NCBI GenBank assembly: GCA_944390005.1
Contig: CALXOJ010000003.1
Coordinates: 1-64,000, forward strand
DNA from: an uncultured Spirochaetota bacterium
GTDB taxonomy: Bacteria; Spirochaetota; Spirochaetia; JAFGXN01
Direction: 5' to 3'
DNA: 64,000 nucleotides
The notes beneath the pieces were generated by a model that saw nothing but the letters and a program-made list of their open reading frames with translations, searched no databases and was not told where the DNA came from. The position numbers and the translations under genes are program-made. Every line of letters starts with the position of its first letter. Positions within the stretch are counted from its first letter, which is position 1. Shown piece by piece: positions 13,906 through 42,832 of this stretch.

Positions 13906-13931
13906 AATAAGAGAAAGGAGTTGATCTTTAA

Positions 13932-14369
13932 ATGTCAGTGAAACGCTTTTTAATAATATTGTTCACATTTTTTTCGGTAGCCTTTATCGGCTGTCAAATC
14001 AAAGCTGTCGAAAAAACACTGAACGGAATGTGGACGGAATCTCGCAAGACTTCTTCCGGAGAGCAGGCGATAACGACTATCACTTTTATCGGCGAAACGG
14101 CAACGTTTACGTGGATTGAAAGAACGGGAGATGTGGAGACAAATAACAGGACAGGATCTTATATCATCTATTTAAACGGTGACCAGGATAATGTCCGTCT
14201 GCGGGCAACTGTCGTTTTAACGTTTGCGGAGACTCCCGAAGAACCGGCGAAAAGCGCCGCATTTTGGTTCTCTTTTTCCAAGTCGGAAGACGGAACCGAG
14301 TATTTAAATCTTGAACCGATTGATGAAGCCGATGATGTGTACGTATTGACGCGTGCCGCTGAGGCTTGA
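13932..14369 (+). CDS. Small lipoprotein with lipocalin-like pattern
   Basis: The 145-residue product starts with a signal peptide ending in the lipobox FIGC (Cys at about residue 23). The mature part has alternating short beta-strand-like segments. LNGMWTE near its start and GSYIIYLNGD resemble the first strands of lipocalin-like small periplasmic proteins. This is a pattern match only. AAAGGAG precedes the ATG. It lies 12 bases before the next gene, in the same direction as the whole surface-protein run. Confidence 0.65.
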   Translation: MSVKRFLIILFTFFSVAFIGCQIKAVEKTLNGMWTESRKTSSGEQAITTITFIGETATFTWIERTGDVETNNRTGSYIIYLNGDQDNVRLRATVVLTFAETPEEPAKSAAFWFSFSKSEDGTEYLNLEPIDEADDVYVLTRAAEA

Positions 14370-14381
14370 TAAGGAGTTTTT

Positions 14382-16640
14382 ATGAAAAATGCAAAACGGA
14401 AAGTCATTTTAACCGCCTTTGCATCGACGGCAGCACTTTTTTCCTGTGCAAATCCGTTTTTTGGAGAAGAGGTGAGATCGGCCCATTTTGAGCAAGAGGA
14501 GTATACACCGCCTCAATACGAACGCCTGTCGCCGCCTTCAACCGTCATAGCGACGGAAAATGAAATTGATAAAATTGTTTTGACTTGGTCAAAAGTCAGT
14601 GCCGCTGTCGAATACCGTGTTTATCGTTCGGAAAGCGCTGACAGTGGGTTTAAACTGTTGGTTGAAGTGCAGGATCCGACATTTACGGATACGGGAGCGA
14701 TTCTTTCCCTGAAATCGGGGCTTTCTTACTATTATAAAATTGCCTGCGTCAGCGTTGAAGGCATCGAGTCGGCGTTAAGTACTGCCGTTGTCGGCCGCTG
14801 TTACTTAAGCAACGGCGAGGTAATTCCTCCGCCTGAAGTAATAGCTTCTCAAGGCGCTTTTCAGGATAAAATCGAAGTGAAATGGACAGAGGTCCCGACG
14901 GCGCTGTATTACCGGGTTTTTCGTTCCGAAACTGACGAGGCCGGCAGTTTCGAAGCCGCTGAGGCTTTCATCGCCGATAACGTGAGTGAAACGGTCTTTG
15001 TCGATACGGATGTCGAGCTCGGAAAAGTTTACTATTATAAAATTCAATCGGTTGGAGCCTCTCCCGAACCGGGTGCAGAGCCGGTTTCCAGTACGCTTTC
15101 GGTTTCGGGAAGCGGTTCTTTGGCGTCTCTTTCTGTCGGAGCGGTGGAAGGTTTCAGCGCGTCTGTCGATATTTCAAACGGCGTTTATTTGGAGTGGAAT
15201 CCTGTTGATTTCCCGGTTGAGATCTTTCGCGCCGAGGCGCAGAGTGTTGGCGAGAGTGGAAGTGAATTCGAAGCAGTCGAAGATTTTGCTCTGTTGGCTG
15301 AGGTAGAAGCCGGAATCAGTTCCTATTCGGACGTAAAAACCAATATGAAGGAGAAGCCGTATCTCTATAAAATTCAGGCAGTGAAAAGCGATGCGGAACG
15401 GGGTATTCTCTCTGAAGCAGTTGTCGGTCACGTTCCTATAACGCCTCCTGTTATCACGCTTATTGGAGGAGAAGAGACGCTGATTATCGATTTAAACAAG
15501 ACGCCGTCATTGGAGGATTTTACCGATCCCGGGTGTACGGCAATGGATGATTTTGATGGAGATGTGACAGCGAGAGTTGTTGCCGATCTCTCTGCGCTTG
15601 ATTTTAACAAATTGAGCGCAGAGCAGGTCATTACGTACAAAGTCAGCGACGCAGCGGGCAATGAGACGATTAAAGAACGGAAGGTGCAAACTGTTTTTCT
15701 GCCGGATTTGTCAAACGCGGTTATTGAGCGCATTTCATCTTTTCCGTCCTTGCCGACTCAGTCGACGACATTCAGGATCAGCGGACTGGAACCGGCTCAA
15801 GTTCCCCAAAAATTCGGAGCGAATTACGTTTATACGTGGACGGTAGAAGATGGAACAGCTTCCGGCAGCGGAGCCGATGGAGCACTGGTCATTGATTTCG
15901 CCGGCAGCACTTCAATTGAGAAAAAAATTACCGTTTCCGTCGGAACAGATAAAGATGATCAGAGAGTTGATTTTTCAGAAACCGAGGAGTTTAAGATTTC
16001 CGCTCTTGCGGACTTCGGTTCCGACTTTAATACCGCCGGACAGTTTGCGCCGTTTACGGCCGATTATAAGTTAGTGTGGAAAAATTGGTCATTTGGCTAT
16101 AAATGGGATCTTGAAACCGGTTCGGAATATCATAATGAGAGCAATCCTCTCACAAGTGATACATGGTACACATATTTGGGCACTCAAAAAGAGCTGATTG
16201 TTTCTGCGGCGGACGGTTCGTTCGTCATGTGCGATACATCAACTGATACGAATGTAGCCGGAATGGGCGACGCCGCCGAAACAGCGGTCAGTCTCAATGG
16301 TCCGGAATTCAATGTAGTTGGCGGAGTGACATATAAGGTCAGTGCCCGCATTTACCGTGCAGCCGACTCCAAGGCGGATGTTTTTGTGACTGTCGGTTCC
16401 AAAGAGGCTTTGGTTCCTACGGCGGAAGGATGGCACGACATTGAGTTCGATTATACGCCGGCGTCCGATACTCAAACTTCGTTAAAAGTTTGGAAAATGC
16501 CTGTCGGCGTCCGCGATTGGAGTGCGATTACAGGAGGCGAGGACGGCAACTTAAAAACCGGAAGCGACACGAAAGGGGTGAAAGTCGACAGTATCTCAAT
16601 CCGTTATGCGGATAAGGCGGACGAACCGTCGGAGGCATAA
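14382..16640 (+). CDS. Multi-domain FN3 lipoprotein with DUF5011-like and CBM-like regions
   Basis: The 752-residue product begins with a lipoprotein signal (FASTAALFSC, Cys near residue 23). Three FN3-like repeats follow; each carries a VxLxW strand and a YYKI or YLYKI strand (about residues 45-150, 155-255 and 260-350). Residues ~355-450 match the DUF5011/HYR Ig-like pattern (FTDPGCTAMDDFDGDVT, ITYKVSDAAGN). The last ~200 residues resemble a family 4/9-type carbohydrate-binding jelly roll (VVGGVTYKVSARIYR, GWHDIEFDYTP). AAGGAG precedes the ATG. Together these suggest an outer-membrane-anchored adhesin or glycan-binding protein. That role is inference. Confidence 0.75.
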   Translation: MKNAKRKVILTAFASTAALFSCANPFFGEEVRSAHFEQEEYTPPQYERLSPPSTVIATENEIDKIVLTWSKVSAAVEYRVYRSESADSGFKLLVEVQDPTFTDTGAILSLKSGLSYYYKIACVSVEGIESALSTAVVGRCYLSNGEVIPPPEVIASQGAFQDKIEVKWTEVPTALYYRVFRSETDEAGSFEAAEAFIADNVSETVFVDTDVELGKVYYYKIQSVGASPEPGAEPVSSTLSVSGSGSLASLSVGAVEGFSASVDISNGVYLEWNPVDFPVEIFRAEAQSVGESGSEFEAVEDFALLAEVEAGISSYSDVKTNMKEKPYLYKIQAVKSDAERGILSEAVVGHVPITPPVITLIGGEETLIIDLNKTPSLEDFTDPGCTAMDDFDGDVTARVVADLSALDFNKLSAEQVITYKVSDAAGNETIKERKVQTVFLPDLSNAVIERISSFPSLPTQSTTFRISGLEPAQVPQKFGANYVYTWTVEDGTASGSGADGALVIDFAGSTSIEKKITVSVGTDKDDQRVDFSETEEFKISALADFGSDFNTAGQFAPFTADYKLVWKNWSFGYKWDLETGSEYHNESNPLTSDTWYTYLGTQKELIVSAADGSFVMCDTSTDTNVAGMGDAAETAVSLNGPEFNVVGGVTYKVSARIYRAADSKADVFVTVGSKEALVPTAEGWHDIEFDYTPASDTQTSLKVWKMPVGVRDWSAITGGEDGNLKTGSDTKGVKVDSISIRYADKADEPSEA

Positions 16641-16641
16641 A

Positions 16642-18987
16642 ATGAAGAGAATTGCCGTATTTTTAAGCGTTGTGCTGTTGTTCTTTTCATGCACGGATCA
16701 ATTTTATACGGAATTTCAGGATGGAAGTGATTCAAAATTAAACGACATCATTTTTCCTGAACCGCAGCCGTTTCAACCGGAGCCGATTGTGGTCTCCGGT
16801 TTTCAGGCTTCCAACGGAGATTTTCTTGATGAAATTGAAATCAAGTGGAATCCCGTTTCTGCGGGAGTTTGGTATTGGCGATTGTTCTGGTTCACCGATA
16901 AAGAGGAAGCGCGAGCGGCGCTGACCGAAGCGTCGACAAATGGATTTTACAAAACGGAAGAGACGGTCGGAGTTCAAAATTCGGGTAAGTTATCTTTTAC
17001 TGCTTCGTCTTATACACACTCTTTTACCTTTGACGGCGATGGAAGCGAAATTCAACTGTCTTCCGATATGACATTTTATTATTTATTAAAAGGATATGAC
17101 GGAGCCGAGCGCATTATCGCCTATTCAACCGTTGCGGAGGGAAAGACGGCGACTGTTCCTTATGATGTGACGGCGAGCCGCAATTATCAGCCGCAGACCC
17201 CCGAAGCTTCCGCATTCATCACTTTAACGTGGAAGTGGGACGCTCCGGGGGCTTCTTTCCGTTTGGAGCGGGCAAAAGCGCCGTATTCTCAAGAGCAGAG
17301 TTGGGACGATTTGGGCATTATTGACGTACAGAATGAGAATGGCGTTTATACTTATACCGAAGAAGTTTCGCACACAGCCGACTGCAAAGTCAATTCAGAC
17401 GGTGATACGAATATTCAATGTTCCTCAGAGTGTCCCATCGGATCCGAGTTTGCCTATCGAATTTATGCGGTAACGAATGGGGTTGAGTCTTCGGCAAGCC
17501 GCATGGTGCACGGTGCGACAGTCAAATGGGGAACGCCTCCTGCCGTAACGGGTGTGACGGCGAGCCAGGGGCTTTACGGGAAAAAAATTGTATTGACATG
17601 GGATGCGATGGATGTTGAGAATTTCGAGGGATATTCGGTCTATATTCAGGGGAGATCTGATCCTGTCGTGAAAAATCTTTATGAGACTCGTTACGAATAT
17701 TCCACGACTTCATACGACATAATGAATTTTTATGTCAGGGCATCCAATCAATTCGGCGAGGGCGTGCCGAGCGATTCGGTTTCCGGTAATATTGTGCCGC
17801 AGGTGAGAAACACATCGGGAACTGTGCTGACGGATGAGTCGAAAATTACTGTGACGTGGTCGCCGGTAGCGGTTATTGACGGGGCGATTGAGTATAATCT
17901 CTACCGCAGTGAAACGACAGCGGGGGAGGGAACTCTGATTGCGGAAAATTTAACCGACACGACGTATTCCGACAGCGACGAAACGTTGCAGCAGGGAAAG
18001 GTCTATTATTATTCAATCGAACCGCGAAATACGGCAGCCGATCCGCTTGAAGAGGGAATCGGACAACGTTCCGCATTCAAAGATACTTACGGCGCAATGG
18101 GAATTATGAATGAACCTGAATTTTCGGTCAGCACCGACACAAACGGTAAGGTAACCGTCACTTTGACAAATAAACCGTCATTCTGTCAGACAGCGGTCTC
18201 TGTTAATCAATGGGTTTATACTCCCAATTATACAAAAAAAGCGAGTGCCGATTCATCTATCCCGTCTCAACCTCAAAATTGGGAGCAGACACTGCAATTC
18301 AAGAATCAATGGACGCGCAAAAAGGTAGAATCTCAGTTGACGGTCGGTTCCGATGCTGCGGTTTATACCGGTTCTGCGTTGGCTTTCGGAATGAATGATT
18401 TTACGGTTACATACAGTTTTGATATAAAAGAGATCGGTTATTCAAAGCAAATGGAAACAACGCAATCGATTAAAAAAGAAATCTCTGACGAAGAATTTTT
18501 AATTAATGCGCTGCGCGTCATTGACTTTTCGCAATCATGGCTGAATTTAATTCACCAGCCGGGAACGGGGGCTGCCGGCTTTGATTCCGTCTCCATAAAC
18601 GGATACAACGGCTGGTCTTCCGGCAACTGCGGCGGTAAAGGCGGATCGTGCAGCAGTAAACAAAGTTCTCCGAATAAAGGATGCTTTCATTATAATGCGT
18701 CTGTCGGAGTGGGAAATGTTACGGTTCCTTTAATGTACAACGACTTTGAAGCGTTTGACATGACTTTCAATTCAATCGGAACCCGACATCAAACGGAAGT
18801 GGATTGGTCCGCAAACGGCAAATTAGTCGGATATATTAATATTTCCGGACTTTATCCCGGTAAACTGACTTTCAATCTGACAATTACCGATTCCGTCAAA
18901 GCCGGAGGAACGTACACAGTTCAACAGGAAGGGAAATCCGCTAAATCGTTGGCATGGGATGTTGACAGATCGTATTTCGGAAAGTAA
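16642..18987 (+). CDS. FN3-repeat lipoprotein with the shared C-terminal module
   Basis: The product is 781 residues from the ATG at 16642, which has GGAGG six bases upstream and lies one base after the previous stop. The signal MKRIAVFLSVVLLFFSC gives a lipid-anchored Cys at 17. Several FN3-like repeats follow, with strands such as ITLTWKWDAPG, IVLTWDAMDVENFEGYSVY and ITVTWSPVA. The C-terminal ~290 residues parallel the gene at 12427. The sequence SDEEFLINALRVIDFSQ, then LNLIHQPGTGAAGFDSV, VGYINISGLYPGKL and the end LAWDVDRSYFGK align with it. A Gly/Cys/Ser-rich insert (GGKGGSCSS) is unique to this copy. Confidence 0.78.
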   Translation: MKRIAVFLSVVLLFFSCTDQFYTEFQDGSDSKLNDIIFPEPQPFQPEPIVVSGFQASNGDFLDEIEIKWNPVSAGVWYWRLFWFTDKEEARAALTEASTNGFYKTEETVGVQNSGKLSFTASSYTHSFTFDGDGSEIQLSSDMTFYYLLKGYDGAERIIAYSTVAEGKTATVPYDVTASRNYQPQTPEASAFITLTWKWDAPGASFRLERAKAPYSQEQSWDDLGIIDVQNENGVYTYTEEVSHTADCKVNSDGDTNIQCSSECPIGSEFAYRIYAVTNGVESSASRMVHGATVKWGTPPAVTGVTASQGLYGKKIVLTWDAMDVENFEGYSVYIQGRSDPVVKNLYETRYEYSTTSYDIMNFYVRASNQFGEGVPSDSVSGNIVPQVRNTSGTVLTDESKITVTWSPVAVIDGAIEYNLYRSETTAGEGTLIAENLTDTTYSDSDETLQQGKVYYYSIEPRNTAADPLEEGIGQRSAFKDTYGAMGIMNEPEFSVSTDTNGKVTVTLTNKPSFCQTAVSVNQWVYTPNYTKKASADSSIPSQPQNWEQTLQFKNQWTRKKVESQLTVGSDAAVYTGSALAFGMNDFTVTYSFDIKEIGYSKQMETTQSIKKEISDEEFLINALRVIDFSQSWLNLIHQPGTGAAGFDSVSINGYNGWSSGNCGGKGGSCSSKQSSPNKGCFHYNASVGVGNVTVPLMYNDFEAFDMTFNSIGTRHQTEVDWSANGKLVGYINISGLYPGKLTFNLTITDSVKAGGTYTVQQEGKSAKSLAWDVDRSYFGK

Positions 18988-19011: not shown

Positions 19012-21687
19012 ATGAAGAAGCGATGGACGGGCGTTTTCTTTGTTTTGTTTTGCCTCTCCTGCGGTCCGGATAAAGCGCCTGGGCAGATTGACGCACAGGT
19101 TCTCTCTGTCGTTTTGGAGAGCAAAAAGACAATCTACGAATACGGAGAGACGATTCAGGTTCGCGCCAAAGTTTCTTCGCAGCTATCGACGGTTCGTCTG
19201 TATGAGTGGTACACGGACGGTCGTTACGAAGCCGCTTTGCTGACGGAGCGTTACGAATACACTCCGACGGAGATACGCGACACTTCGTATCGGATAAAAA
19301 TTGATGTTAAAGTGCGCGTCGGCATCTATACAGCAACCGATTCGATTTCCATCCAAGTCAATCCGCCGGTTCCTCCCGATTTCGAATGGACGGTGAACGG
19401 TACTTCTCCTCAAACACAGCTGCTGCTTTTTAACGAAACTCTGACAACCTCTGTAGAGGCGGCCGCCGGAAGCGACATCCGCAGCTGTCATTTTTTCTGG
19501 GATTCCATTCTTCTCAACCCGCAGTCGGCAGAAAATTTAACGCTGACAATGGATGAGAGCCGCTTCGGAACGCATACGTTTTCGGTTGAGGTCTCCGACG
19601 GAGTGTCGACGGTTCGCCGCTCCTGCACGGTGAAGGTTGGCCCTGTCCTCGGCGCGGTGATTACCGCTGAAGCCGGAAACATTAACGCTCTTTTCGGCGA
19701 CGATTTGCAGGTTTCAGCGGGAGTAAGGATGATAGAGGACTCCTACCGTTTTCTCTCTGCCGAATGGTTTATCGGGGAGCCTCAATCGGACTTTCTGACC
19801 TCCCTGTCTTCTTTTCAAAGTGAAGACGGAAAAAAGCTTGATCTTCCTGGAAATTCGGAATGGATGAGACCGGCAAACTCAGAAAATGGCGTTCGTTGGC
19901 GGTTAAAGATCAAATTTCGCTTTGAGCAGCTTTCGACCGGTCAAAAAATTACATTTTCCGACTCTGTTTTTTTAAATATTGCTCCGTATACGCCTCTGAA
20001 AATTGAGCATTTTTCGGTGCCTGAAACGGTATCTTTTTACGAGTGGCGAAATGGTTTGGCGGTTGCTGAAGCCGTCGTTTCCGGCGGCCGATCGCCGGTT
20101 GAGTGGCATTGGCGCGTTGACGGCAGTCAAGAGGAAATCACAAATCAGCCAAGCTGGATTGTGCCGTGTCCGCTGACGGAATGGGACGGCGGTTCACAGC
20201 GTTTAATCGAGTTGAAAGTAAAAGTAACTGACGGAATTTCGGAACTGGAAAAATCTTTTCGGATGAATGTGACTTTCTCCGATGCACCGTTGATTCGCCG
20301 TTTTTATGAAGGTGAATCAATCGAGTGGCAGGCGGCTGACGGATTTGACGGTGAAGTTTTTTTCATCATATCGAAAGCGATAGATGAATCACCGGACTTT
20401 CGCGTTCGCTCCGCTTCCCGCGGCCGAGAATCGGAACCCGCCTTGCGGCAGAAAGCCGCCGCGGCGGCGGTCGGCGCCGAAAAAAAGACTTTTACCGTTT
20501 CCGACTTGCTGACGCCTGCAACACTGCGTTTTTCGTCTTATGTTGCGCGCGCCGACCGAATCCTTGAAATTTGGGTCGCCGACAACCTTTGGGGATCAAC
20601 GGGAATCAATGATGCCGACGTAAAGGAAATTGCCGAGCGGTTTTTACCGCAGAGCGGAAAGGGCATTTACGATGAAACAACGGCGATTCTCGGCAAAGAG
20701 TGGGGAAATTTAGCGAATATTCTTTATTTGAAATACATTAACCCCGAAGAGACAATAGCCGTGCTGCTTTGCGATATTGACGGAGATCAAAAAACCGATT
20801 TTTCCGAAGGCGCTGTAGCCGGCATTTTTGAGCCTGAAGACTGTTTTTTGCGGACATTTCCTCCTTTCACCGACTCCGACGAAAAACTGATGGTTGCTTT
20901 AGACGCTCCGTTGCTTCGTTCTGAAAAAGAGACGGTTTATTCTACTTTGGCACACGAATTTGCACATTTGATTACTTTTTATCAAAAGGAAGTCTCTGCA
21001 TTTTCGGGGCAAAAAATGACAGAAACGTGGCTTAGTGAAATGATTTCGATGTGCGTTGAGGACTTGCTTGCCGAATCTATGGGGTGGAAAGGTCCGCGCG
21101 GCGTTTTGGGGCTTGAAGCGCCGGATTATCCTCCTTACGTGACAGTCGGCCGGCTGCCGCTTTTTATCGCCGATCCGACATTGAGTCCGGCTCCCGATAA
21201 CTTTGAAAAACCTTCGATCTATGAAAATTATGCAGCCGCTTACGCATTTGGAGCGTGGCTGATTCGAAACTATCCGCATCCCGAATTATTGAATAAAATT
21301 GTGAAAAACAGTGACGATGACGTTAAAGCGGTTTTGACTGGTCTGCGCAATTGCGGATTTGACGTTTCGCTCGAAGATTTATTTGCCGATTTTGCGACGG
21401 CAGTTGTTTTATCCGATCTCAAGAATCTTCCCTCCGTTTCCCGTAAGCGTTACAACGCTGTCGGAGGATTTTCGTATTCGGAAACCGTTAGTGCAGGTGC
21501 GATCGACTTAAACGCTTACATTTATGAAAGCCAATCCGGACCGCGGTTTTCAGTCGGTGCGCCGCATTTAGAAGCGCCGTCGGAAAATTATTCGCAGCGA
21601 TTTTACAGGATGACAGCGGAAAGCGGTTATTCGCCCGTTTCGGGAACGGTTCCGGACGGCTGTACGCTCACTGTCGTCGAAAAATAA
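19012..21687 (+). CDS. Large lipoprotein with Ig/PKD-like repeats and an M30-like zinc metallopeptidase domain
   Basis: The 891-residue product starts with a signal peptide ending in LSC, then about 430 residues of beta-rich Ig/PKD-like repeats (FEWTVNG, EWHWRVDGS). The C-terminal half carries HEFAH (H648, E649, H652), with E676 24 residues further on in TETWLSEM. This HExxH...E arrangement resembles gluzincins and best matches my memory of hyicolysin-type M30 peptidases. It is probably an exported protease anchored to a membrane. The start has only a weak AAAGAAG upstream. It ends the five-gene export run, and its substrate may include the neighbouring surface proteins (inference). Confidence 0.75.
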   Translation: MKKRWTGVFFVLFCLSCGPDKAPGQIDAQVLSVVLESKKTIYEYGETIQVRAKVSSQLSTVRLYEWYTDGRYEAALLTERYEYTPTEIRDTSYRIKIDVKVRVGIYTATDSISIQVNPPVPPDFEWTVNGTSPQTQLLLFNETLTTSVEAAAGSDIRSCHFFWDSILLNPQSAENLTLTMDESRFGTHTFSVEVSDGVSTVRRSCTVKVGPVLGAVITAEAGNINALFGDDLQVSAGVRMIEDSYRFLSAEWFIGEPQSDFLTSLSSFQSEDGKKLDLPGNSEWMRPANSENGVRWRLKIKFRFEQLSTGQKITFSDSVFLNIAPYTPLKIEHFSVPETVSFYEWRNGLAVAEAVVSGGRSPVEWHWRVDGSQEEITNQPSWIVPCPLTEWDGGSQRLIELKVKVTDGISELEKSFRMNVTFSDAPLIRRFYEGESIEWQAADGFDGEVFFIISKAIDESPDFRVRSASRGRESEPALRQKAAAAAVGAEKKTFTVSDLLTPATLRFSSYVARADRILEIWVADNLWGSTGINDADVKEIAERFLPQSGKGIYDETTAILGKEWGNLANILYLKYINPEETIAVLLCDIDGDQKTDFSEGAVAGIFEPEDCFLRTFPPFTDSDEKLMVALDAPLLRSEKETVYSTLAHEFAHLITFYQKEVSAFSGQKMTETWLSEMISMCVEDLLAESMGWKGPRGVLGLEAPDYPPYVTVGRLPLFIADPTLSPAPDNFEKPSIYENYAAAYAFGAWLIRNYPHPELLNKIVKNSDDDVKAVLTGLRNCGFDVSLEDLFADFATAVVLSDLKNLPSVSRKRYNAVGGFSYSETVSAGAIDLNAYIYESQSGPRFSVGAPHLEAPSENYSQRFYRMTAESGYSPVSGTVPDGCTLTVVEK

Positions 21688-21778: not shown

Positions 21779-24376
21779 ATGGACTGGGATAAATATACCG
21801 AAAATGCGAAAAATGCCATTCAAGAGGCGGCGGCGCAAGCTATCAAAAACGACAACAGTGAGGTTACTTGCGAACACTTTTTACTTGCCTTGTTGGAACA
21901 AGAAGGAACGATGTTGTCAACGCTTCTCGAACGGCTGGAAGTGAAAACAGATGAGCTGATAGAGCGCGTTCGGCGAGCCGTTCGTTCTTTGCCGAAGGTA
22001 ACCGGAGGCAATGCGGAACCGCGGCTGAGCGGTGAACTGAACCGTGTAATTGTTAAGGCCGAAAACGAAGCGGACGCTTTCAAAGATTCTTATGTTAACG
22101 TCAACCACCTCTTTTTGTCGCTTTTAAAAAGCGGCGGTTCGGTTGCGTCGATTTTGCGGGAGTTCGGTTTGACCGCTGACCGAGTATCGGCCGTTTTAAG
22201 ACAGGTTGCCGATGCTTCCGGCGGTGAAAACGGTGATAAGGAAGGCGGTGATAAAATTCTTGAGAAATACTGCAAGGATTTGACGAAATTGGCTCGGCAG
22301 GAGAAATTGGATCCCGTCATCGGTCGTGACGAAGAAATCCGCCGCGTGATGCAGGTGCTTTCCCGTCGGACGAAGAACAATCCGGTGCTGATCGGCGAAC
22401 CGGGTGTCGGAAAAACGGCGATTGTTGAAGGATTGGCACGGAGGATTGTCTCCGGCGACGTTCCTGATTCGCTGAAAAATCGACGGCTTTTAGCGCTTGA
22501 CTTGGGCGCACTGTTGGCGGGTGCTAAATTCCGCGGTGAATTTGAGGAGCGGCTGAAAGGCGTTATTGAAAAAGTGACAGCATCCGACGGAAAAATCATT
22601 CTCTTTATCGATGAACTGCACACGTTGGTCGGTGCGGGCGCAGCTGAAGGTTCGACAGACGCCTCTAACTTGCTGAAACCGGCATTGGCGCGCGGTCAGC
22701 TGAGAGCCATCGGGGCGACAACGCTCGATGAATATCGAAAATACATTGAAAAGGATGCTGCGTTGGAGCGGCGCTTTCAACCCGTGTATACCGGCGAACC
22801 GAGCGTTGAATCGACCATTGCGATTTTGCGCGGAATTAAGGACAAATACGAGGTGCATCACGGCGTTCGCATCAAAGACGATGCGTTGGTGGCGGCCGCC
22901 GTTTTGTCCGACCGCTACATTACCGGTCGTTTTTTACCGGATAAAGCGATCGATTTGGTCGATGAAGCGGCCAGCCGTTTGAAAATGGAAATTGAAAGTC
23001 AGCCGTTGGAGCTGGATCAATACAATCGGAAACTGCTTCAATTGGAAATCGAGAAGAAATCTCTGGAAAAAGAGAGCGACAAAGCGAGCGTCGATCGGCT
23101 GAAAAAACTTGAAAAGGAGTACTCCGAACTAAAAGAGGTTCAAACAAAGCTGACAATGAAGTGGCAGTCGGAGAAGGAAATTATCGGCGAAATCCAGTCA
23201 AGAAAAGAAAAACTCGAGCAGCTGAAAGCGCAGGAGACGCAGTTCGAACGCGAAGGCAATCTGGCAAAGGCAGGCGAGGTGAAGTACGGACTTATTCCGC
23301 AGACCCGCAAAGAGATTGAAGATTTAAGCGTTAAGCTCAAAACGATGGGCGACGATCGCCTGTTGAGGGAAGAGGTCTCCGAAGAGGACATCGCGAAGGT
23401 TGTTTCGACGTGGACAGGAATCCCGGTAAGAAAGATGCTCTCATCTGAAATGGAAAAACTGATGAAGCTTGAAGAGATTTTGGGACAGAGGGTCGTCGGT
23501 CAAAGTGACGGAATCCGCGCGGTCAGCGACGCGATTCGCCGCAATAAAACCGGTCTGTCGGATGAAAACCGTCCGCTCGGTTCGTTCCTTTTTTTAGGGC
23601 CGACCGGTGTTGGAAAAACGGAGTTGGCAAAAGCGTTGGCGGCCTTCCTTTTCGACGACGAAAAGGCGCTGACACGTATCGACATGAGCGAGTACATGGA
23701 AAAACACGCCGTTTCCCGCTTAATCGGAGCGCCTCCGGGGTATGTCGGTTACGATCAGGGCGGACAGCTGACGGAAGCCGTCAGACGGCGGCCGTATTCG
23801 GTGGTTCTGTTCGACGAAATCGAAAAAGCACATCCCGATGTGTTCAACGTACTCTTGCAGCTGCTTGATGACGGACGGTTGACCGACGGACAGGGACGGG
23901 TTGTCAACTTTCGCAACTCGATTATCATTCTGACAAGCAATATCGGCAGTGAGCTGATTTTGGAAACCGCCGATCCTAAGCAAATTGAAGAGAAAATTTT
24001 GCAGCAGCTGAAACACTATTTCAAACCGGAGTTTTTAAACCGAATCGACGAAACCGTCATTTTTCACCGTTTGGACAAAGAACACATTCGTGAAATCGTA
24101 AAGATTCAGCTGCGTCGGATCGAAAAACGCCTTTCAGGGCGCAACATCGTCGTTTCATTCGGCGACGGATTGGTCGATCATATTGCGGAGGAAGGATTTG
24201 ATCCCGTTTACGGCGCCCGTCCCGTTAAGAGGGCGATTCAAAATGATGTGGAAAACGAATTGGCAAAGGCAATGCTGACAGGCCGTTTCGGAGATGGCGA
24301 CGCCGTGCAGATGGATTGGCAAGGCAATCAAGCGGTTATTGAAGTAACAAAAGCAGCGTCTGCGGAAGAGAGCTGA
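21779..24376 (+). CDS. clpB: ClpB disaggregase (AAA+ chaperone)
   Basis: The 865-residue product has the double Clp-N repeat at the N-terminus. The first AAA domain has Walker [10 protein letters not shown] and Walker [16 protein letters not shown]. The coiled-coil M domain spans about residues 400-520 ([18 protein letters not shown]), and the second AAA domain has [15 protein letters not shown] and [15 protein letters not shown]. The M domain separates ClpB from ClpA/C. It rescues aggregated proteins with DnaK. AGGAGG precedes the ATG. The 91-base gap upstream is AT-rich, but I see neither a good -35/-10 pair nor a CIRCE operator, so heat control cannot be read from it. Confidence 0.96.
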
Positions 24377-25472: not shown

Positions 25473-26945
25473 ATGGAAAGTGTAATTATTGTCGGCGGAG
25501 GAATTGCCGGAATCAGTGCAGGGATTTTCCTTCAAAAAAAGGGAATTCCATCGGTTATATACGAAAAAAACGACCGTCCGGGAGGCGTTTGTTATAGTTT
25601 TGATGAAAAAAATTTCCATTTCGATTTATGCTGCCGGCTGCTGAACGGAATCGAAAGCGGGTGGCGCCATAAATTGATGTTGGAAACCGGAGCGGTTTTT
25701 CCCGGAATGAAGACAGAATCATCTCCGTTTGAAATTTATCAAAATGAAGGGGAGAGTTTTCGTGTTGAATGGAATTGTGCGTCATTTCGAAAGCTGCTGA
25801 ACGGTTTGTGTTCAAATGAAGACAGCCGCCGAATTGATCACTTCTTTGACACGGTGGAAAAATTTTACAACCTTTCTCAGGAAGAACGAATTCGTCCGTT
25901 CGGATTACTTTCGCTTAGAGAAAAGTCGGAATTTTTACGAAAGAGAAAGCCCTATTTCGATCTTTACAAAAAAATTCTTCCGGTTCCTTTCGAAAAATGG
26001 ATTGCCGAATGGCAGAGTGAATCGGTTCGCAAGTTGTGGCAGGCGATTTATCCCGATAATTACAGTTTGTTTGCGTTTTTTACCTATGCGGCTGCACGGC
26101 TTTACGGGAACAGCGGCCGGCCGGTCGGCGGATCAAAGGCGCTCATCCGCCGTTTAACCGAAACATACCGCAATCTCGGCGGACGATTGGAAACAGGAGC
26201 GGCGGTTGATGAAATCGTGATGGATAAAAAACGAGTGGCGGGAGTGCGTCTCGGAAAGCGGTTTGAAGCGGCGCCGGCGGTTGTGGCCGCTTGTGATTTG
26301 TCCGCAGTGTTGACGAAATTATTGCACGGTCAGGTAAAATTCAAACAGGCAAAAACTTTCTTGACCCACGGCGATTTGGTCTATCCGATAATAACAATTT
26401 GTTACGGCTTAAGTAAGCGTTTTGGAATTCCTGATATGCTTTTTCTTGAGGACGATCACGGTGTCGACGGATCGCCCGATTTGACGAATCGACTGATTGA
26501 AATTCAGTCTTATGAGTCGATTCCCGGAGCAGCTCCTCCCGGAAAAAGTGCGGTGGTTGTTAACCTTCGCTGCGATTGGTACTTTTGGAAAAATCTTCGG
26601 GAAAGAAGCGAAGATGCATATCGTCAATATAAGCTGACAGTTGTGAACGAATTAAACGATTGTATGGAAAGACATTTTCCCGGTTTTACCGATGCTGTTG
26701 AAGTGACAAAAGTGCTGACGCCGCTTTCTTATGGAAAGCTATCTGTGTTGTATAAGGGGGCATGGCGAGGATTTGCTCCGACGGCGCTGTCAATAAAACA
26801 TCAAATTCCGCATTTTGTTTCATCCTGTAAAGGACTTTATTTTTGCGGACAGAGCGTTGCTGTCGGCGGCGGCATTGACGCCGTCACCGAAGACGCTTAC
26901 GAAACGGTAGAATACCTGCTTGCCAAGGAAAAATTTATTTTTTAA
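25473..26945 (+). CDS. FAD-dependent oxidoreductase of the phytoene desaturase-like family
   Basis: The 490-residue product opens with a dinucleotide fold, VIIVGGGIAGISAGIFLQKK, and YEKNDRPGGVCYS. It closes with GLYFCGQSVAVGGGIDAVTEDA, the usual FAD-contacting C-terminus of the COG1233 (CrtI/retinol saturase-like) group. The substrate cannot be read from sequence, and no carotenoid synthesis genes lie nearby. The start at 25473 follows GGAGG and a promoter. Its 3' end overlaps the convergent SDR gene by 11 bases. Together with the SDR and the flavodoxin-like gene it makes a small redox neighbourhood, perhaps for lipid modification (inference). Confidence 0.82.
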   Translation: MESVIIVGGGIAGISAGIFLQKKGIPSVIYEKNDRPGGVCYSFDEKNFHFDLCCRLLNGIESGWRHKLMLETGAVFPGMKTESSPFEIYQNEGESFRVEWNCASFRKLLNGLCSNEDSRRIDHFFDTVEKFYNLSQEERIRPFGLLSLREKSEFLRKRKPYFDLYKKILPVPFEKWIAEWQSESVRKLWQAIYPDNYSLFAFFTYAAARLYGNSGRPVGGSKALIRRLTETYRNLGGRLETGAAVDEIVMDKKRVAGVRLGKRFEAAPAVVAACDLSAVLTKLLHGQVKFKQAKTFLTHGDLVYPIITICYGLSKRFGIPDMLFLEDDHGVDGSPDLTNRLIEIQSYESIPGAAPPGKSAVVVNLRCDWYFWKNLRERSEDAYRQYKLTVVNELNDCMERHFPGFTDAVEVTKVLTPLSYGKLSVLYKGAWRGFAPTALSIKHQIPHFVSSCKGLYFCGQSVAVGGGIDAVTEDAYETVEYLLAKEKFIF

Positions 26946-27720
26946 CCGTATTAACCTTGACCATAACCGCTAACAGCAATGAACGCGGTACAAAGCGCTG
27001 AATGAAACGCAGAAACGCGAATTTCTTTTCCGGAATGATAATTTTTTTTCCGCGTTTGAATTCTTTATAGACGCGATCAATAATGATTTTCGGCGGCCGC
27101 ATGCCCGAATTGCGGGCAGGGTCGAACAGTGTATCGGTACCGGCTTTCTTAAGAAACGGTGTGGCGCACGGCCCGGGACAGTAGCAACAGATTCGAACCC
27201 CGGTTTTTTTATTTTCGGCGATCAACGCTTCCGTCAAAGAGAGTATATATGCTTTGCATGCGTAGTAGGCTGCCATATACGGGCCCGGTTGGAATGAAGC
27301 AGCCGAAGCGGCATTCATGATGACGCCTTGTTTCTCTTCAATCATTTTCGGTAAAAAGAGGTGGATCAAATCATTGACTGCTTCGACATTCAGCCGAATC
27401 ATGGACGTCTCTTTTTCGGATGGAATTTCATGAAAAGCTCCGCCCGTGCCCATTCCTGCATTGTTTACAAGAATATCAATGTGGAATCGGTTTTCATCGC
27501 AATACTCTTTCAATGCCGCGCGCCCTTCCGGAGTGGTTAAATCCGTTGAAAAAATGAAAATTTTGACGTCGTATTTGCCTTCCAATTCGCGTTTGGCATT
27601 TTCCAATAAATCGAAACGCCGTGCAACAAGCAGCAGATTGTGTTTATCTTGTGCGAAATGCTCTGCCAGTTCTCGTCCGAATCCTTCTGATCCGCCGGTG
27701 ATGATGGTGATATTGGTCAT
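26935..27720 (-). CDS. Short-chain dehydrogenase/reductase
   Basis: The 261-residue classical SDR has the cofactor loop TGGSEGFGRELA, the NNAGMG motif and the catalytic triad region with YxxxK (AAYYACKAYILSL). The basic residues after strand 2 (ARR) suggest NADPH. The C-terminal FKRGKKIIIPEKKFAFLRF with hydrophobic ends resembles the COG0300 group, which often acts on lipid substrates at the membrane. The substrate is unknown. It has a promoter with TATAAT and AGGAG before the ATG. Confidence 0.86.
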   Translation of the reverse strand: MTNITIITGGSEGFGRELAEHFAQDKHNLLLVARRFDLLENAKRELEGKYDVKIFIFSTDLTTPEGRAALKEYCDENRFHIDILVNNAGMGTGGAFHEIPSEKETSMIRLNVEAVNDLIHLFLPKMIEEKQGVIMNAASAASFQPGPYMAAYYACKAYILSLTEALIAENKKTGVRICCYCPGPCATPFLKKAGTDTLFDPARNSGMRPPKIIIDRVYKEFKRGKKIIIPEKKFAFLRFIQRFVPRSLLLAVMVKVNTVKK

Positions 27721-27738
27721 AAGTGCTCCTGACTTTTT

Positions 27739-27767
27739 ATTATATCTTTTTTCGATTACTCTGTGAA
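27739..27767 (-). promoter_or_regulatory. Promoter of the SDR gene
   Basis: On the minus strand TTCACA (complement of 27762-27767) and TATAAT (complement of 27739-27744) are separated by 17 bases. A short leader with AGGAG follows. Confidence 0.7.
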
Positions 27768-27792
27768 TAGGCTGCTGGTTTTTAAACTTATG

Positions 27793-29031
27793 TTATTTTT
27801 TAAAAAACTGAATCAGACGGTGACGGCCCGATGTTTTCGAAGAGAGAGGCAGCAGTTTTTCTTGAAATTCGCACAGAACCGCTTTTTCCGCTTCTCCGTC
27901 GGTCGGCCGCGGTTTGGGGGATTCAAGTAACCGAAGTGTTTCCGTTGCCGCCGCGATGAGATTATCCGTAATTTGCTTTGAGGATTCGTCTTCGTCGCTG
28001 ACAATGCCGGCAACATGTTCTCCGTGAAGAATCGATTTTGTACGAATGTATTTATCGAATCGCGTGGGGCTTTTTAAATTGCCTGAAAGAATCCAAACGG
28101 AGAGCTTTCGCTTTTTTCGATCAAAAAAAGCCGGCATGAAAATTCGATCAAGAAACAGTTTTAACGGAGGAGAAAAAATTCCGGAACGAATATCGTCGGC
28201 GAAAATGACAACATCGGCCTCTTTGTACTTTTGGTAAATTGTTTTTCCGATGGAATCCGAGTCAAGATTGCAGTACTGATTGGTAAAGCATTCCCTTCCC
28301 CCGGCGCAAGAAAAACAGAGACGCAGTTGGGACAGATTGATTGTCTCGGCAGGAAAAGGGAAAATTTTCCCCCATATATCGATTAATTGAGATAAATTCG
28401 ATTTCTCGTCGGCGTCTGCTGTAATCAACAAAATTTTGGCGCAAGCGTCAGATTTCATTGAAATTGGTCTTTGCCTTACCGAAGTATAAGGAATAAATCG
28501 TTCGATATTCGGGACAAAAAAACGGGAAGGGCGGATATTGTTTTTTACCTTATGAAGAAAGTCGGAAAAAAAATAACGGGCGCGTTCGACTTCAGCCGGT
28601 GAATCGGCAGCGTCAGGGAGACAATGAAATCCGTTAAACCAAAACATTCCCCACGATTGGCAGGTGAAAGCCAAAGCGGTTTCCGCATCGTCTGAAGAAA
28701 AGAAAAAAGAGGTAAAGACAGCCGATGTATATTTATTTTTTAATAACATACCGGCATTTTTGCGATTGATGATGTCGATGAAACGGCAAATTTCATAAGA
28801 AGGCAGCAAATTGCGGATCGGAACAAGCCAAATGATCGCGTCGCAATCGTGCATTGCTCGAATGTATGAGTCAAAAAAGTTCTGATTTTCGTCTAATACT
28901 TTGATGTATTTCCCGATTTCAAGGATTTCAAAACGCAATGATTGATCGGCCGGGGACATCAATAAGGAAGCAAGTTTTTCGGAAGCGCTTTCTTTTCCGC
29001 GATTGCTGCCGGCAATAAAAACGATTTTCAT
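27793..29031 (-). CDS. Tandem flavodoxin-like (NADPH-dependent FMN reductase-type) protein
   Basis: The 412-residue product appears to hold two flavodoxin-like domains. The first starts KIVFIAGSNRGKESASEKLA with ADAIIW-like CDAIIWLVP at about residue 88. The second starts AKILLITADADEKSNLSQ at about 200, has the Cys cluster LCFSCAGGRECF, then ADVVIFADDIRSGIFSPPLK and LFLDR. This spacing is typical of iron-sulfur flavoprotein/NADPH-dependent FMN reductase relatives. A single polypeptide with two such domains is less common. GGAGAAG precedes the ATG. It is an electron-transfer candidate for the nearby SDR and CrtI-like enzymes (inference). Confidence 0.72.
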   Translation of the reverse strand: MKIVFIAGSNRGKESASEKLASLLMSPADQSLRFEILEIGKYIKVLDENQNFFDSYIRAMHDCDAIIWLVPIRNLLPSYEICRFIDIINRKNAGMLLKNKYTSAVFTSFFFSSDDAETALAFTCQSWGMFWFNGFHCLPDAADSPAEVERARYFFSDFLHKVKNNIRPSRFFVPNIERFIPYTSVRQRPISMKSDACAKILLITADADEKSNLSQLIDIWGKIFPFPAETINLSQLRLCFSCAGGRECFTNQYCNLDSDSIGKTIYQKYKEADVVIFADDIRSGIFSPPLKLFLDRIFMPAFFDRKKRKLSVWILSGNLKSPTRFDKYIRTKSILHGEHVAGIVSDEDESSKQITDNLIAAATETLRLLESPKPRPTDGEAEKAVLCEFQEKLLPLSSKTSGRHRLIQFFKK

Positions 29032-36023: not shown

Positions 36024-39218
<3,195 letters not shown>

Positions 39219-39225
39219 TTCGAGG

Positions 39226-39257
39226 CCGCTCGGGGCTGTCCCGAGCGGTCTTTTTTT
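39226..39257 (+). terminator. Terminator after the beta-galactosidase gene
   Basis: CCGCTCGGG (39226-39234) pairs with CCCGAGCGG (39240-39248) around GCTGT and is followed by TCTTTTTTT. The next gene starts only 15 bases later, so some read-through may feed it. Confidence 0.88.
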
Positions 39258-39271
39258 AAGGAGGTAAATTC

Positions 39272-40162
39272 GTGCAGGAGAAAATTTTACTTTTTTTGCA
39301 GGAGCAGGCAAATCCGTTTTGGGACGCCTTGTTTCATTTTTTTAGTTTTTTGGGAGAACCGCTGATTTACATGCTGATTTTAAGTTGGCTGATTTGGAAC
39401 GGTTCGAAAAAGAAGGGCTTTGCGTTTTCGTTTGTGCTTATGTTTTCCGTTTTGGTGAATCTTGCTTTGAAAATGATTTTCAGGCATCCGAGACCGTTTC
39501 AGGTGGTTGAGGGTGTCGACGGCAAACGGCTTTCCACTGCAGGCGGTTATTCCTTTCCCAGCGGACATACTCAAAACGCGGCAACTTTCTATTTTTCGTT
39601 GTACGCTCGTTCCGGAAAAATTTGGATTCTGCCGATTGTATCAGTGATTGTTTTGCTGATCGGCCTTTCGCGATTGTATTTGGGGGTCCATTGGCCGCAG
39701 GACGTTGCTGTCGGCTTGATTTTAGGAATTTTATTTCCGTTGCTGCTTTTTAAACCGTTCTGTCGAATTTACGAAGTCAAAAGGCATCGATTGATTTTTT
39801 TAGCAGTGACTGCTGTCGGTTCTTTTGTGCTTGGAATCGGTTGCTACGCCGCTTCTTTTTTTCTTCCGTCTGATTTTGATTGGGGCGATATTCATAAGTT
39901 TACGTTGATGACAACCGGATTGGCTGTCGGTTATCTTGCTGAGATGCTTTTCGGAGAATTTTCGACTGATGGAACGTTCAAAATTAAGATTTTGCGTTAT
40001 CTTCTTGGCTTGATTCCTGTTGCCGCGGTTTATTTGGGAATCAAATTTCTTCTCCCGGATTTTGTTTGGCTCGATATGGTTCGTTATTTTCTGGTTGGAT
40101 TGACAGCAACGGGATTAGTGCCGCAGATCGGAAAAAAGATGAAGCTCTTCGGAGCCGGCTGA
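39272..40162 (+). CDS. Membrane PAP2-family phosphatase
   Basis: The 296-residue membrane protein has the three acid-phosphatase motifs: KMIFRHPRP, PSGHTQNA and SRLYLGVHWPQDV. There are about six to eight hydrophobic segments, including a C-terminal pair beyond the usual core. The family removes phosphate from lipid phosphates such as phosphatidic acid or undecaprenyl pyrophosphate. The start is GTG at 39272 with AAGGAGG upstream, just after the beta-galactosidase terminator. Confidence 0.85.
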   Translation: MQEKILLFLQEQANPFWDALFHFFSFLGEPLIYMLILSWLIWNGSKKKGFAFSFVLMFSVLVNLALKMIFRHPRPFQVVEGVDGKRLSTAGGYSFPSGHTQNAATFYFSLYARSGKIWILPIVSVIVLLIGLSRLYLGVHWPQDVAVGLILGILFPLLLFKPFCRIYEVKRHRLIFLAVTAVGSFVLGIGCYAASFFLPSDFDWGDIHKFTLMTTGLAVGYLAEMLFGEFSTDGTFKIKILRYLLGLIPVAAVYLGIKFLLPDFVWLDMVRYFLVGLTATGLVPQIGKKMKLFGAG

Positions 40163-40176
40163 GTTCTGTGAGGTAT

Positions 40177-40213
40177 AAAAAAGGGTTCATGTCTGAACAT
40201 GAACCCTTTTTTT
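40177..40213. terminator. Bidirectional terminator between PAP2 and GH2 genes
   Basis: GGGTTCATGT (40183-40192) pairs perfectly with ACATGAACCC (40197-40206). It is flanked by six A on the left and seven T on the right, so it can terminate both converging transcripts. Confidence 0.92.
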
Positions 40214-40228
40214 GATAATTGCTTATGA

Positions 40229-42832
40229 TTATTTTTTTGTGGTGACTTTAAATTCGGCTGAACGGTTCCCGATGGTCACGCGTGCTTTTACCGTTTTTCC
40301 CGGAGTTTCGGAAGCTTTTACCCGAACAAATACCGCGTCTCCCGGCTGCACCTCTCCGTTTTGATCAGTGTATTCCGAAACATAAATTCGGTATTCACCG
40401 CCTTTGATTTTAATCGGCACGGGATTGATGAATCCGGAAAGGAGTACGGCGGAAGATTCAACGTAGGCACCCGGTTCTGCATCCGTTACTGCTTCAAACG
40501 AAAAAGCGTCAACCTTTTCTCGGCCTAAACGTTTGCTCTTTTCTGCTGCAACTTCATAGGAAATTTTCGTCGGTTCTTCGGCATTGAATCCGACAGGGAA
40601 GAGCATATCGTCGTCGGCTTTGACAACTTTAATCACACACGGCTGCGAGGTCAGTCCGCAAGCGGATGCCTGTATCGTTAATTCGCCCGGTACATAACCG
40701 CTTTGGACGAGGATGATGTGCTGTCCTGCAACAAGATTGACGGGGTTTTCTCCTATCAGCTGACCGTGTCCCTCAATCGAAAATGAGAGCGGTGAGTTTT
40801 CTTTCTCGACAATCATTCCGTTTTCATCGAGAACCGACACCTGAAGACGGATTAAATCGCTGCCGTCAGCCTTTAAAGCGCGTGCCTCGTGCTCGATTTT
40901 GATTTGCGCCGGTCGTCCCGGTTCGCTCCAAACCGCTTCGGACATAACTTTTCCGTTGCTAATTCCCTCCGCTTTCAGGAACGTGGAGTTTTCAGGGATT
41001 CGGAAGGTGACAAACGGGTGCTTGACTGAAATCCCTTTATCGGGTTCTTGAATCGCAATTTCTTTCATTTCATCCTTTGCCGCACCGGCATAAAGGCGTA
41101 CCTGTTCGGCATTGCTGAAGACAACAGCAGAGGAAGCATTCTCCCGTACGATGTAGGTCATCGGATCTTTTCCGAATTCACTCTGATGCCAGAAGTATGA
41201 AAATTTCGGAATACGGAAAAGGTCGCAGATTCCGTGGCGGGCTACGGCTTTTTGTGAATTATGATAGGTGTTGTAATCGTATGCGCACCAACTGGCCAGT
41301 CCGTATTCGTTTTCAATTTGATTGGCGCGGGCGATCATTTCCATATGGCGTCTGGCCTGATCCAATTCACGGTTGCTTCCGTTTCGGCCGCTGCGGTTGC
41401 GTTCTCCGCGGGTTGTCGGGAACATATGACCGGTGTGTTCAAGCGTCAGCGCCTTTTCGGAAACCGTGCCGTGCATAAAATCCATCGGGCAGTAAATATC
41501 TTCTTGTCCCAAAACGCGTGTCGGATCTTCTTTTCGGGCGGCTGCCACCAATTCGGGCAGTGCCGAGGTTTCATGGTTAATGCAGGCGTTCCAAATGATG
41601 ATTGAAGGATGATTTCTGTCTCGGCGAATCATCGACGTAAACGATTTTGTCAGATTTTCCATCCACATTCCGCGTCCGCGTCTCATCCATGTGGGACCTT
41701 CTTCCAACGCCATCAATCCCAATTCATCCAAATCGTCCAAAAAGTCGGGATCATGGGGATAATGAGAAAGACGTACCCAATTGATTCCCATTGACTTCAA
41801 CTGCTCGGCGTCGGCTCGGTGAAGCGTGTCGGGGAGCGCGCCTCCGATATACGGCCAATTCTGGTGGCGGTTGGTACCGACGAGTTTCAAGTGTTTGCCG
41901 TTTAAGAAAAAGCCTTTGTCTTCAGTCCATTCCGTCCAGCGCAGTCCGATGCGCGTCTCTTTGCTGTCGACAGGCGTGCCGTTTTTAAGCAGTGTTGTCT
42001 TTACGGTGTAGAGGTAGGGAGAATCGGGGCTCCACAAATTCGGCTGCGTTATGGGGTTCAGTGTTTGTTCGATACAAACGTCGGCTCCGGCAGCCAACAG
42101 CGATTCGCCGGATGTGTTTGAGGCGACTGTTTTTCCACTGCGGTCGATAACTTCGGTTTTGACGGCGATGCGGGCCTCTTGCTCCGAGGTGTTGCGGATA
42201 CCCGTTTCGGCGGCAACTACCGCTTTTTCGGCAGAAATTTCGGGATAATAAATGCGGATGCCCTGTTTTTCTCCTTCCCACGGATAAGTGATGTGGACTT
42301 TATCAGTGATTTCAAGGAAAACATCGCGGTAAAGTCCTCCGAAAAGGATGAAATCGTGCTTGATTCCGTCCGGCGGAATTTCCTTGTTTTCGCTGTTGTC
42401 AACGCGAACGGCAATCAGATTGGCGCCTTCGGTAACAAATGGGGTAATATCAAAGCTGAACGAATCGTAACCGCTGACGGCGTAGGAGCCGGCTTTTTGG
42501 CCGTTGACGAAGACTTCTGCCGTCTGCATCGCTCCCTGAAATTGAAGCAGGACAGATTTGTCGGCGATGTCGGAGAGTTCGACGGTTTTGCGGTACCAAC
42601 CGACGCTTCTTCCGTACTTATCAAATCCATTTAAATCGTAAGGAAAGACTCTCATCGTATGAGGAAGAGAAATCAAATCCCATCCCTCGGTATTTAAATC
42701 CGCTGCGCCGCCGTTATTGACGTCGCCGAGGTGAAAAAACCATCCTGGATTCATGTTCCATGTGACTCTGTCAGCAAAAGCTGAGAGAGAAAGACAGCAG
42801 AGAAGTGCTGCCAAAATTCTTTTTATTCGCAT
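40229..42832 (-). CDS. Exported GH2-family glycoside hydrolase with unusual active-site motifs
   Basis: The 867-residue product has the signal peptide RIKRILAALLCCLSLSAFA. The sugar-binding domain has GWYRKTVEL and LYRDVFLEI. An Ig-like domain and a TIM barrel follow (KLVGTNRHQNWPYIG, NHPSIIIW). The usual acid/base NE pair is replaced by WNACINHETS. The nucleophile region looks like LEHTGHMFPT followed by ASWCAYDYNTYH. This variant form I associate with a GH2 branch annotated as beta-galactosidase, but the substrate is open. C-terminal Ig-like domains follow. It lies 66 bases downstream of the symporter gene and is probably co-transcribed. Confidence 0.85.
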   Translation of the reverse strand: MRIKRILAALLCCLSLSAFADRVTWNMNPGWFFHLGDVNNGGAADLNTEGWDLISLPHTMRVFPYDLNGFDKYGRSVGWYRKTVELSDIADKSVLLQFQGAMQTAEVFVNGQKAGSYAVSGYDSFSFDITPFVTEGANLIAVRVDNSENKEIPPDGIKHDFILFGGLYRDVFLEITDKVHITYPWEGEKQGIRIYYPEISAEKAVVAAETGIRNTSEQEARIAVKTEVIDRSGKTVASNTSGESLLAAGADVCIEQTLNPITQPNLWSPDSPYLYTVKTTLLKNGTPVDSKETRIGLRWTEWTEDKGFFLNGKHLKLVGTNRHQNWPYIGGALPDTLHRADAEQLKSMGINWVRLSHYPHDPDFLDDLDELGLMALEEGPTWMRRGRGMWMENLTKSFTSMIRRDRNHPSIIIWNACINHETSALPELVAAARKEDPTRVLGQEDIYCPMDFMHGTVSEKALTLEHTGHMFPTTRGERNRSGRNGSNRELDQARRHMEMIARANQIENEYGLASWCAYDYNTYHNSQKAVARHGICDLFRIPKFSYFWHQSEFGKDPMTYIVRENASSAVVFSNAEQVRLYAGAAKDEMKEIAIQEPDKGISVKHPFVTFRIPENSTFLKAEGISNGKVMSEAVWSEPGRPAQIKIEHEARALKADGSDLIRLQVSVLDENGMIVEKENSPLSFSIEGHGQLIGENPVNLVAGQHIILVQSGYVPGELTIQASACGLTSQPCVIKVVKADDDMLFPVGFNAEEPTKISYEVAAEKSKRLGREKVDAFSFEAVTDAEPGAYVESSAVLLSGFINPVPIKIKGGEYRIYVSEYTDQNGEVQPGDAVFVRVKASETPGKTVKARVTIGNRSAEFKVTTKK

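Follow-up and report, generated by a model that had tools for sequence, protein, structure and literature searches.

The subject here is a group of three redox genes at positions 25,473 to 29,031 of a stretch of 64,000 nucleotides (the window) from an uncultured Spirochaetota bacterium (GenBank assembly GCA_944390005.1, contig CALXOJ010000003.1, positions 1 to 64,000), and above all the protein of 412 residues which one of these genes encodes. Judged by its sequence, this protein is a diverged member of a family of fused double-flavodoxin proteins which has no name in Pfam and NCBIfam as searched. The reading preferred here, in which slightly better than even confidence is placed, is a joint one: the protein would be a diverged and fused duplicate of the iron-sulfur flavoprotein (Isf) type, with its two motifs split between the halves, and the three genes would be redox genes independent of each other, placed side by side by chance. 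The sequence-only reading had taken the same genes, which encode a phytoene-desaturase-like (CrtI-like) flavin adenine dinucleotide (FAD) enzyme, a short-chain dehydrogenase/reductase (SDR) and the double protein, for a set which may act on an unusual membrane lipid. The three open reading frames (ORFs) are present and intact where that reading had placed them, on both strands (ORF list and Pfam). The window lies on contig C3 of a 1.95-Mb genome which is 97% complete, and it was compared with one other genome of the genus (the sister) and one further genome of the family. The features of the locus are as follows.

25473..26945, plus strand: CrtI-like FAD-dependent oxidoreductase, 490 residues (intact ORF, Pfam; counterpart 69% identical in the sister genome)
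25482..25523, plus strand: dinucleotide-binding motif VIIVGGGIAGISAG, residues 4-17 of the CrtI-like protein (sequence; Pfam NAD_binding_8)
26935..27720, minus strand: classical SDR, 261 residues (intact ORF, Pfam, motifs; no sister counterpart)
27739..27767, minus strand: promoter-like site between the double-flavodoxin gene and the SDR gene (11/12 consensus bases; consensus match only)
27793..29031, minus strand: fused iron-sulfur-flavoprotein-like protein (double flavodoxin), 412 residues (intact ORF, Pfam, hhalign, motifs)
28477..29031, minus strand: predicted N-terminal flavodoxin-like domain, residues 1-185, the phosphate-loop half (half profiles, alignment)
28981..29010, minus strand: phosphate-loop-like motif GSNRGKESAS, residues 8-17 (family alignment)
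27916..28446, minus strand: predicted C-terminal flavodoxin-like domain, residues 196-372, the cysteine-cluster half (half profiles, alignment)
28270..28317, minus strand: four-cysteine motif C239-x2-C242-x5-C248-x5-C254, shifted compared with the CX2CX2CX5C of the relatives (family alignment)

The Pfam model FMN_red (PF03358) matches the 412-residue protein in two stretches with 58.6 bits (cut-off 24), and the C-terminal half of the window protein alone gives 23.8 bits, just below the cut-off. When the profiles of the N-terminal half (residues 1-180) and the C-terminal half (residues 195-380) of 11 family members were aligned with each other in one comparison, hhalign gave a probability of 96% and an E-value of 4.6e-9; the two halves are therefore regarded as the products of an internal duplication. 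The two domains that had been proposed from the sequence alone are thus confirmed as homologous halves, and a single-domain reading of the protein was rejected on the same match. The predicted secondary structure, taken from a poor model (mean predicted local distance difference test score, pLDDT, 42), consists of two successive beta/alpha runs. The cysteine cluster noted earlier is also real: the sister protein, which is 56% identical, has counterparts of all of C239, C242, C248 and C254.

In flavodoxin-fold reductases and Isf proteins, the loop binds the phosphate of flavin mononucleotide (FMN), and the cysteine quartet ligates a [4Fe-4S] cluster. In a family alignment of 30 sequences (window, sister and 28 others), the phosphate loop [GA]S[PN][KRH][GP] is found in the N-terminal half of 28 proteins, and the two exceptions (L133 and L137) are proteins whose called ORF starts downstream of the loop. 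The cysteine quartet is present in the C-terminal half of all 30, with exactly the spacing CX2CX2CX5C in 28, that is, in all 28 outside the genus. The reverse arrangement does not occur in this alignment: CX2CX2C is found in none of the 30 N-terminal halves, and the phosphate loop at the corresponding position in none of the 30 C-terminal halves, the one loop-like string upstream of the C-terminal cysteines (1/30, L076) sitting in the linker before the strand. For contrast, ten genomes of the class with 49 PF03358 places between them were used; 30 of these places were read and gave 20 single-domain proteins with a cysteine motif. In 17 of the 20 the same domain also matches a loop pattern, which in 11 cases lies exactly 39 residues ahead of the first cysteine, and the remaining three have near-variants by eye; a 416-residue frame with the loop and the cysteine motif in one domain (L169) was excluded from the 20 for its length. 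Because single-domain Isf-like proteins mostly hold both motifs in one domain, the split is taken as the mark of the fused family, and because the loop and the cysteines are split between the halves, the window protein is filed as a fused variant and not as an Isf. At the level of the alignments, then, both the duplication and the motif split can be read off directly.

Comparison with the sister bears on the second part of the preferred reading, the independence of the three genes. Of the 39 window genes between positions 143 and 55121, 38 could be paired with a gene in the compared stretches of the sister, and the exception is the SDR. The sister has the CrtI-like gene and the double-flavodoxin gene tail to tail, with an overlap of 4 base pairs (bp); because both adjoin there without the SDR, the stable unit is this pair and not the trio. 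No match to the SDR (P0002) was found in the sister genome at E <= 1e-3. Three places in the sister match PF00106. The first corresponds in score and length to the window genome's other short SDR, the second is part of a frame of 504 residues with a window-genome counterpart, and the third is a 106-residue SDR-like frame (G001:C8). The third was considered as a relic of the SDR and rejected, as it does not match P0002 significantly. The window species thus has this SDR and the sister lacks it.

The two genes of the pair are also among the least conserved between the two species, since the CrtI-like protein (69%) and the double protein (56%) show some of the lowest identities to the sister, together with four genes at 12391-18987 (52-70%), while the median over the 38 counterparts is 91%. 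The ratio of nonsynonymous to synonymous substitution (dN/dS) of the CrtI-like gene is about 0.15 by a Nei-Gojobori count, though at a dS of 1.4; in the double-protein gene the synonymous sites are saturated between the two species, so no ratio can be given.

Across the class, 394 genomes were sampled, with matches counted at E <= 1e-8 for the double protein and E <= 1e-20 for the CrtI-like protein. The double protein has matches in 45 of these genomes, and the match spans both halves in 39 of the 45, so the earlier description of the fused architecture as uncommon stands only in the sense of this minority. The CrtI-like protein is found in 68/394. In the 15 genomes outside the genus that hold both families, no adjacency of the two genes was found; the distance is 16.6 kb in one (G045) and 126 kb to 2.1 Mb in seven, and in the other seven the genes are on separate contigs, where a break could hide adjacency. 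Consequently, the neighbourhood survey that had been proposed as a check does not show the three genes together elsewhere, neither in the sister genome nor in the 15 genomes outside the genus that hold both other families, and the idea that they form a set is not supported. Because the SDR is missing from the sister locus and the other two genes were not seen adjacent in those 15 genomes, the trio is not a conserved module, and an operon or conserved module of the three was rejected on the same grounds.

The neighbourhoods of the relatives point in the same direction. Outside the genus, 29 of 45 double-protein places were fetched and 28 could be centred (L121, in which no centre was found, was dropped). 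A regulator of the PadR, TetR or AraC type, typed by Pfam probes, lies directly beside the fused gene in 10/28 loci; a TetR-like neighbour in L126, recognized by eye only, would make 11/28, and the count keeps the 10 that are labelled. Furthermore, a TetR gene lies less than 400 bp from the CrtI-like relative in 5/29 loci, a count from which L071, L072 and L073, with incomplete or odd CrtI-like frames, were left out, as they were from the tree described below. Other regulator-adjacent CrtI-like loci turned up under other probes, namely L071 (TetR-type), L141 (TetR) and L148 (PadR). Adjacent regulators are what is expected of inducible single-gene reductases, and those of the relatives suggest that the fused protein is an inducible small-molecule reductase. 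Both families look like mostly independent, often locally regulated genes. When plasmids were searched, a single relative of the fused protein gave no match, and the CrtI-like protein gave 20 records, all of less than 60% identity. As a separate observation, a small flavoprotein which is WrbA-like by eye lies directly beside a canonical fused gene in two genomes of one genus (L060:9718-10329 and L074:8171-8782), and this small flavoprotein has an FMN_red match in G026.

A number of observations weigh against the preferred reading, in either of its parts. As to the protein, FMN_red matches the C-terminal half in only 13 of the 30 family members at E <= 0.01. The motif in the window and sister proteins is CX2CX5CX5C, that is, three of the four canonical positions and one cysteine three residues upstream; the loop of the genus reads GSNRG against GSPKG, and the near-invariant tyrosine of PVY is an arginine. 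A conserved C-terminal block that is present in 9 aligned relatives of 440-485 residues is missing in the window protein (412) and the sister protein (425). The AlphaFold2 models, made from two-row alignments, have mean pLDDT values of 42 and 35 and give no usable structure, and profile searches of the PDB returned weak matches only, none of them named Isf, so the likeness to Isf rests on the motif and its position. In addition, in an excerpt of PMC3164229, the silencing of two amoebal Isf genes left the tolerance of hydrogen peroxide unchanged, which weakens a simple detoxification role. As to the independence of the genes, the CrtI-like and double-protein genes are adjacent in both genomes of the genus, and both families occur together in 17 genomes against 7.8 expected (Fisher p = 0.0004), in a test which treats genomes as independent while 7 of the 17 are of one genus and in three (G174, G225 and G282) the match to the double protein is only partial. 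The window copy of the fused gene has no adjoining regulator. Weak CrtI-type matches occur near the fused gene in G376 (L126, three genes off, E 1e-14) and in G045 (L058, about 11 kb), in L147 an FMN_red-type gene of 274 residues (E 2e-4) lies three genes from the CrtI-like one, and SDRs stand two genes from the centre in L072 and L135; nearby SDRs mean little, because SDR matches occur in 72/78 of the relatives' genomes.

These points bear on the rival explanations to different degrees. The departures of the window protein suggest that it is a diverged copy which may lack one cofactor, and they could be carried further, to a genus in which the fused protein is losing the ancestral chemistry and may bind one cofactor only or serve another role. 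The missing tail block, the displaced second cysteine, the changed PVY, the identity of 56% and the saturated synonymous sites agree with this, but in both species the frame is still open (412-425 codons), and the loop and all four cysteines are retained at corresponding positions, and such a loss is considered unlikely. Quite unlikely, too, is a partnership in which the fused protein feeds low-potential electrons to the CrtI-like FAD enzyme, and this enzyme reduces or hydrates an isoprenoid or another unsaturated lipid. The convergent neighbourhood of the two genes in both species, their common fast divergence (69% and 56% against the median of 91%), their co-occurrence above chance across the class and the presence of one polyprenyl and one undecaprenyl-type synthase each in the window and sister genomes speak for it; the only long internal isoprenoid that the genome suggests is an undecaprenyl-type carrier. 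A precedent exists in Methanosarcina, where a phytoene-desaturase homologue acts on an archaeal membrane lipid and is responsible for hydroxyarchaeol, according to an excerpt of PMC10821996. However, the two genes are on opposite strands and so do not make one operon, no adjacency is seen in the 15 other genomes (eight with both genes on one contig, seven with separate contigs), and elsewhere each family has its own regulator in part of its loci, as counted above.

The lipid pathway of all three genes, as first proposed, is very improbable. It has their physical adjacency in this one genome in its favour, but the SDR has no sister counterpart and has a promoter-like site of its own, SDRs of this type are too common for a nearby one to mean much, and the pathway did not pass the co-occurrence check. 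Neighbouring redox genes, even three together, need not make a pathway, and the rest of this locus is ordinary. The independence of the three genes, together with the fused Isf-type nature of the double protein, is therefore kept as the preferred reading.

As to the CrtI-like protein itself, it matches Amino_oxidase with 54.9 bits (cut-off 19.8) and NAD_binding_8 with 49.9 bits (cut-off 21.9). It resembles phytoene desaturase (TIGR02734) along its length and in the FAD motif, but its score of 78.2 bits is far under the curated cut-off of 238.1. Phytoene/squalene synthase (PF00494) had no match in any of three genomes (window, sister and the third family member), while the control matched 7 of 14 known genomes. 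The earlier remark that no pigment genes are near thus holds, and a carotenoid or squalene pathway was rejected for the lack of a PF00494 match. Because phytoene synthase was not found, carotenoid synthesis is unlikely, and in this organism the enzyme probably does not work on carotenoids. A housekeeping gene of isoprenoid synthesis, gcpE/ispG, is in the window at 57396-58430. By analogy with the Methanosarcina enzyme, a lipid substrate is possible; the precedent is distant, and nothing in the locus points to a lipid. In a FastTree tree of 32 sequences, read without support values and rooted with the second CrtI-like protein of the genome, the proteins of the window and the sister share a long branch that falls outside the remaining 29 relatives of the class. 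A profile search of genome contigs with the two-row CrtI alignment gave one locus, CALXKN010000002.1 (a metagenome-assembled genome of an uncultured spirochaete). The second CrtI-like protein just mentioned has 546 residues (L117:3747-5387, G000:C2) and was typed by Pfam; a match equal to it in length and score occurs in the sister.

The SDR is a classical one, since it matches adh_short (PF00106) with 145.4 bits (cut-off 26.6), and the motifs TGGSEGFG (TGxxxGxG) and YxxxK can be recognized by eye. Its best NCBIfam match is the mycolate reductase-like model NF040690, but the 153 bits are under the cut-off of 380. The window genome has only two SDR places over the PF00106 cut-off (P0002 and one of 219 residues), with no ordinary FabG evident, and it may be without fatty acid synthesis. 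All three genes of the locus have a purine-rich ribosome-binding sequence right upstream of the ATG (read directly), which is GGAGGA in the CrtI-like gene. The CrtI-like and SDR genes are convergent and overlap by 11 bp, and the double-flavodoxin and SDR genes are on one strand with a gap of 72 bp, which holds the promoter-like site 27739..27767; from this site the SDR would have its own transcript. Nine promoter-like sites were found in the region where 6.5 are expected, so this one is weak evidence.

The window also differs in places from the sister in ways that concern other genes. PtsI, Der, TyrS, glycogen phosphorylase and ClpB (named by eye; 1818-8662 and 21779-24376) are 99-100% identical to the sister in protein sequence, most others being 52-98%, and ClpB, next door to the three genes, has a DNA identity of 99.6%. 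This mosaic of identities suggests recent recombination between species. At 12391-18987 lie the four adjacent genes, three of which are large, that differ strongly from those of the sister; Pfam finds in one of them a bacterial surface Ig-like domain with a score over the cut-off, in another only a weak fn3 match and in a third no match. The 891-codon gene at 19012-21687 encodes an M30 metallopeptidase domain, and the best sister counterpart found at this place is a frame of 113 residues. Two large glycosidase-like genes are found at 36039-44794 with a sodium-solute-symporter-like gene close by (named by eye), and a PD-(D/E)XK transposase-type gene (PF12784) lies at 55451-56305, where synteny with the compared sister stretches ends.

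How would a fused protein of the Isf type work? For cofactor binding, electron transfer and substrate, we infer the following from the motifs. An ancestral Isf-type flavodoxin domain would have been duplicated, after which the N-terminal half kept the FMN phosphate loop and the C-terminal half the cysteines for the [4Fe-4S] cluster. In the mechanism considered most likely, the FMN of the N-terminal half would take an electron pair and pass single electrons to the C-terminal cluster, or the reverse, within one chain. On the simplest reading, the protein would be a pseudo-dimer in a single chain, carrying one FMN and one [4Fe-4S] cluster and linking a two-electron donor to one-electron acceptors; acting on its own and linked to NAD(P)H or ferredoxin, it would reduce a small molecule, for example a quinone or a toxic electrophile. 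In the Isf structure paper, the flavin and the cluster facing it are said to be on different subunits, with electron transfer between the subunits. It is put forward tentatively, with somewhat less than even confidence, that the fused family is a fixed, asymmetric tandem-Isf pseudo-dimer which does this transfer in one chain, in the window genus maybe paired with the CrtI-like enzyme. The cooperation of flavin and cluster is hard to dissect in a symmetric Isf oligomer; if the proposal is true, the single-chain version would let each cofactor site be mutated separately in one molecule.

Among known systems, the NADPH-dependent FMN reductases of the SsuE type and the azoreductases are found by the N-half profile (6dqp, E 5.7e-6; 4pty, E 2.5e-5), but these are single-domain proteins whereas the window protein has two domains, and they are not known to carry an iron-sulfur cluster. 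Isf proteins are widespread in anaerobes. Two flavodoxin-like domains in one protein are named for pyruvate oxidases and flavorubredoxin reductase in an excerpt of PMC6037941, and a description of a tandem Isf was not found in the titles and abstract openings of the literature matches listed, which is not proof that it is undescribed. The amoebal Isf motif is given as CX2CX2CX5-7C in an excerpt of PMC3164229, which also says that oxidative stress and cysteine deprivation induce the Isf genes of Entamoeba; the window protein, with CX2CX5CX5C, departs from this motif. With Isf, of which that of Methanosarcina thermophila is the type, the fused family has in common the flavodoxin-like fold family PF03358 and, in the relatives, a CX2CX2CX5C which lies as deep in the C-terminal domain as it does in the single-domain Isf-like proteins of these genomes; but while Isf-like proteins hold the FMN loop and the cysteines in one domain, the fused family splits them between two.

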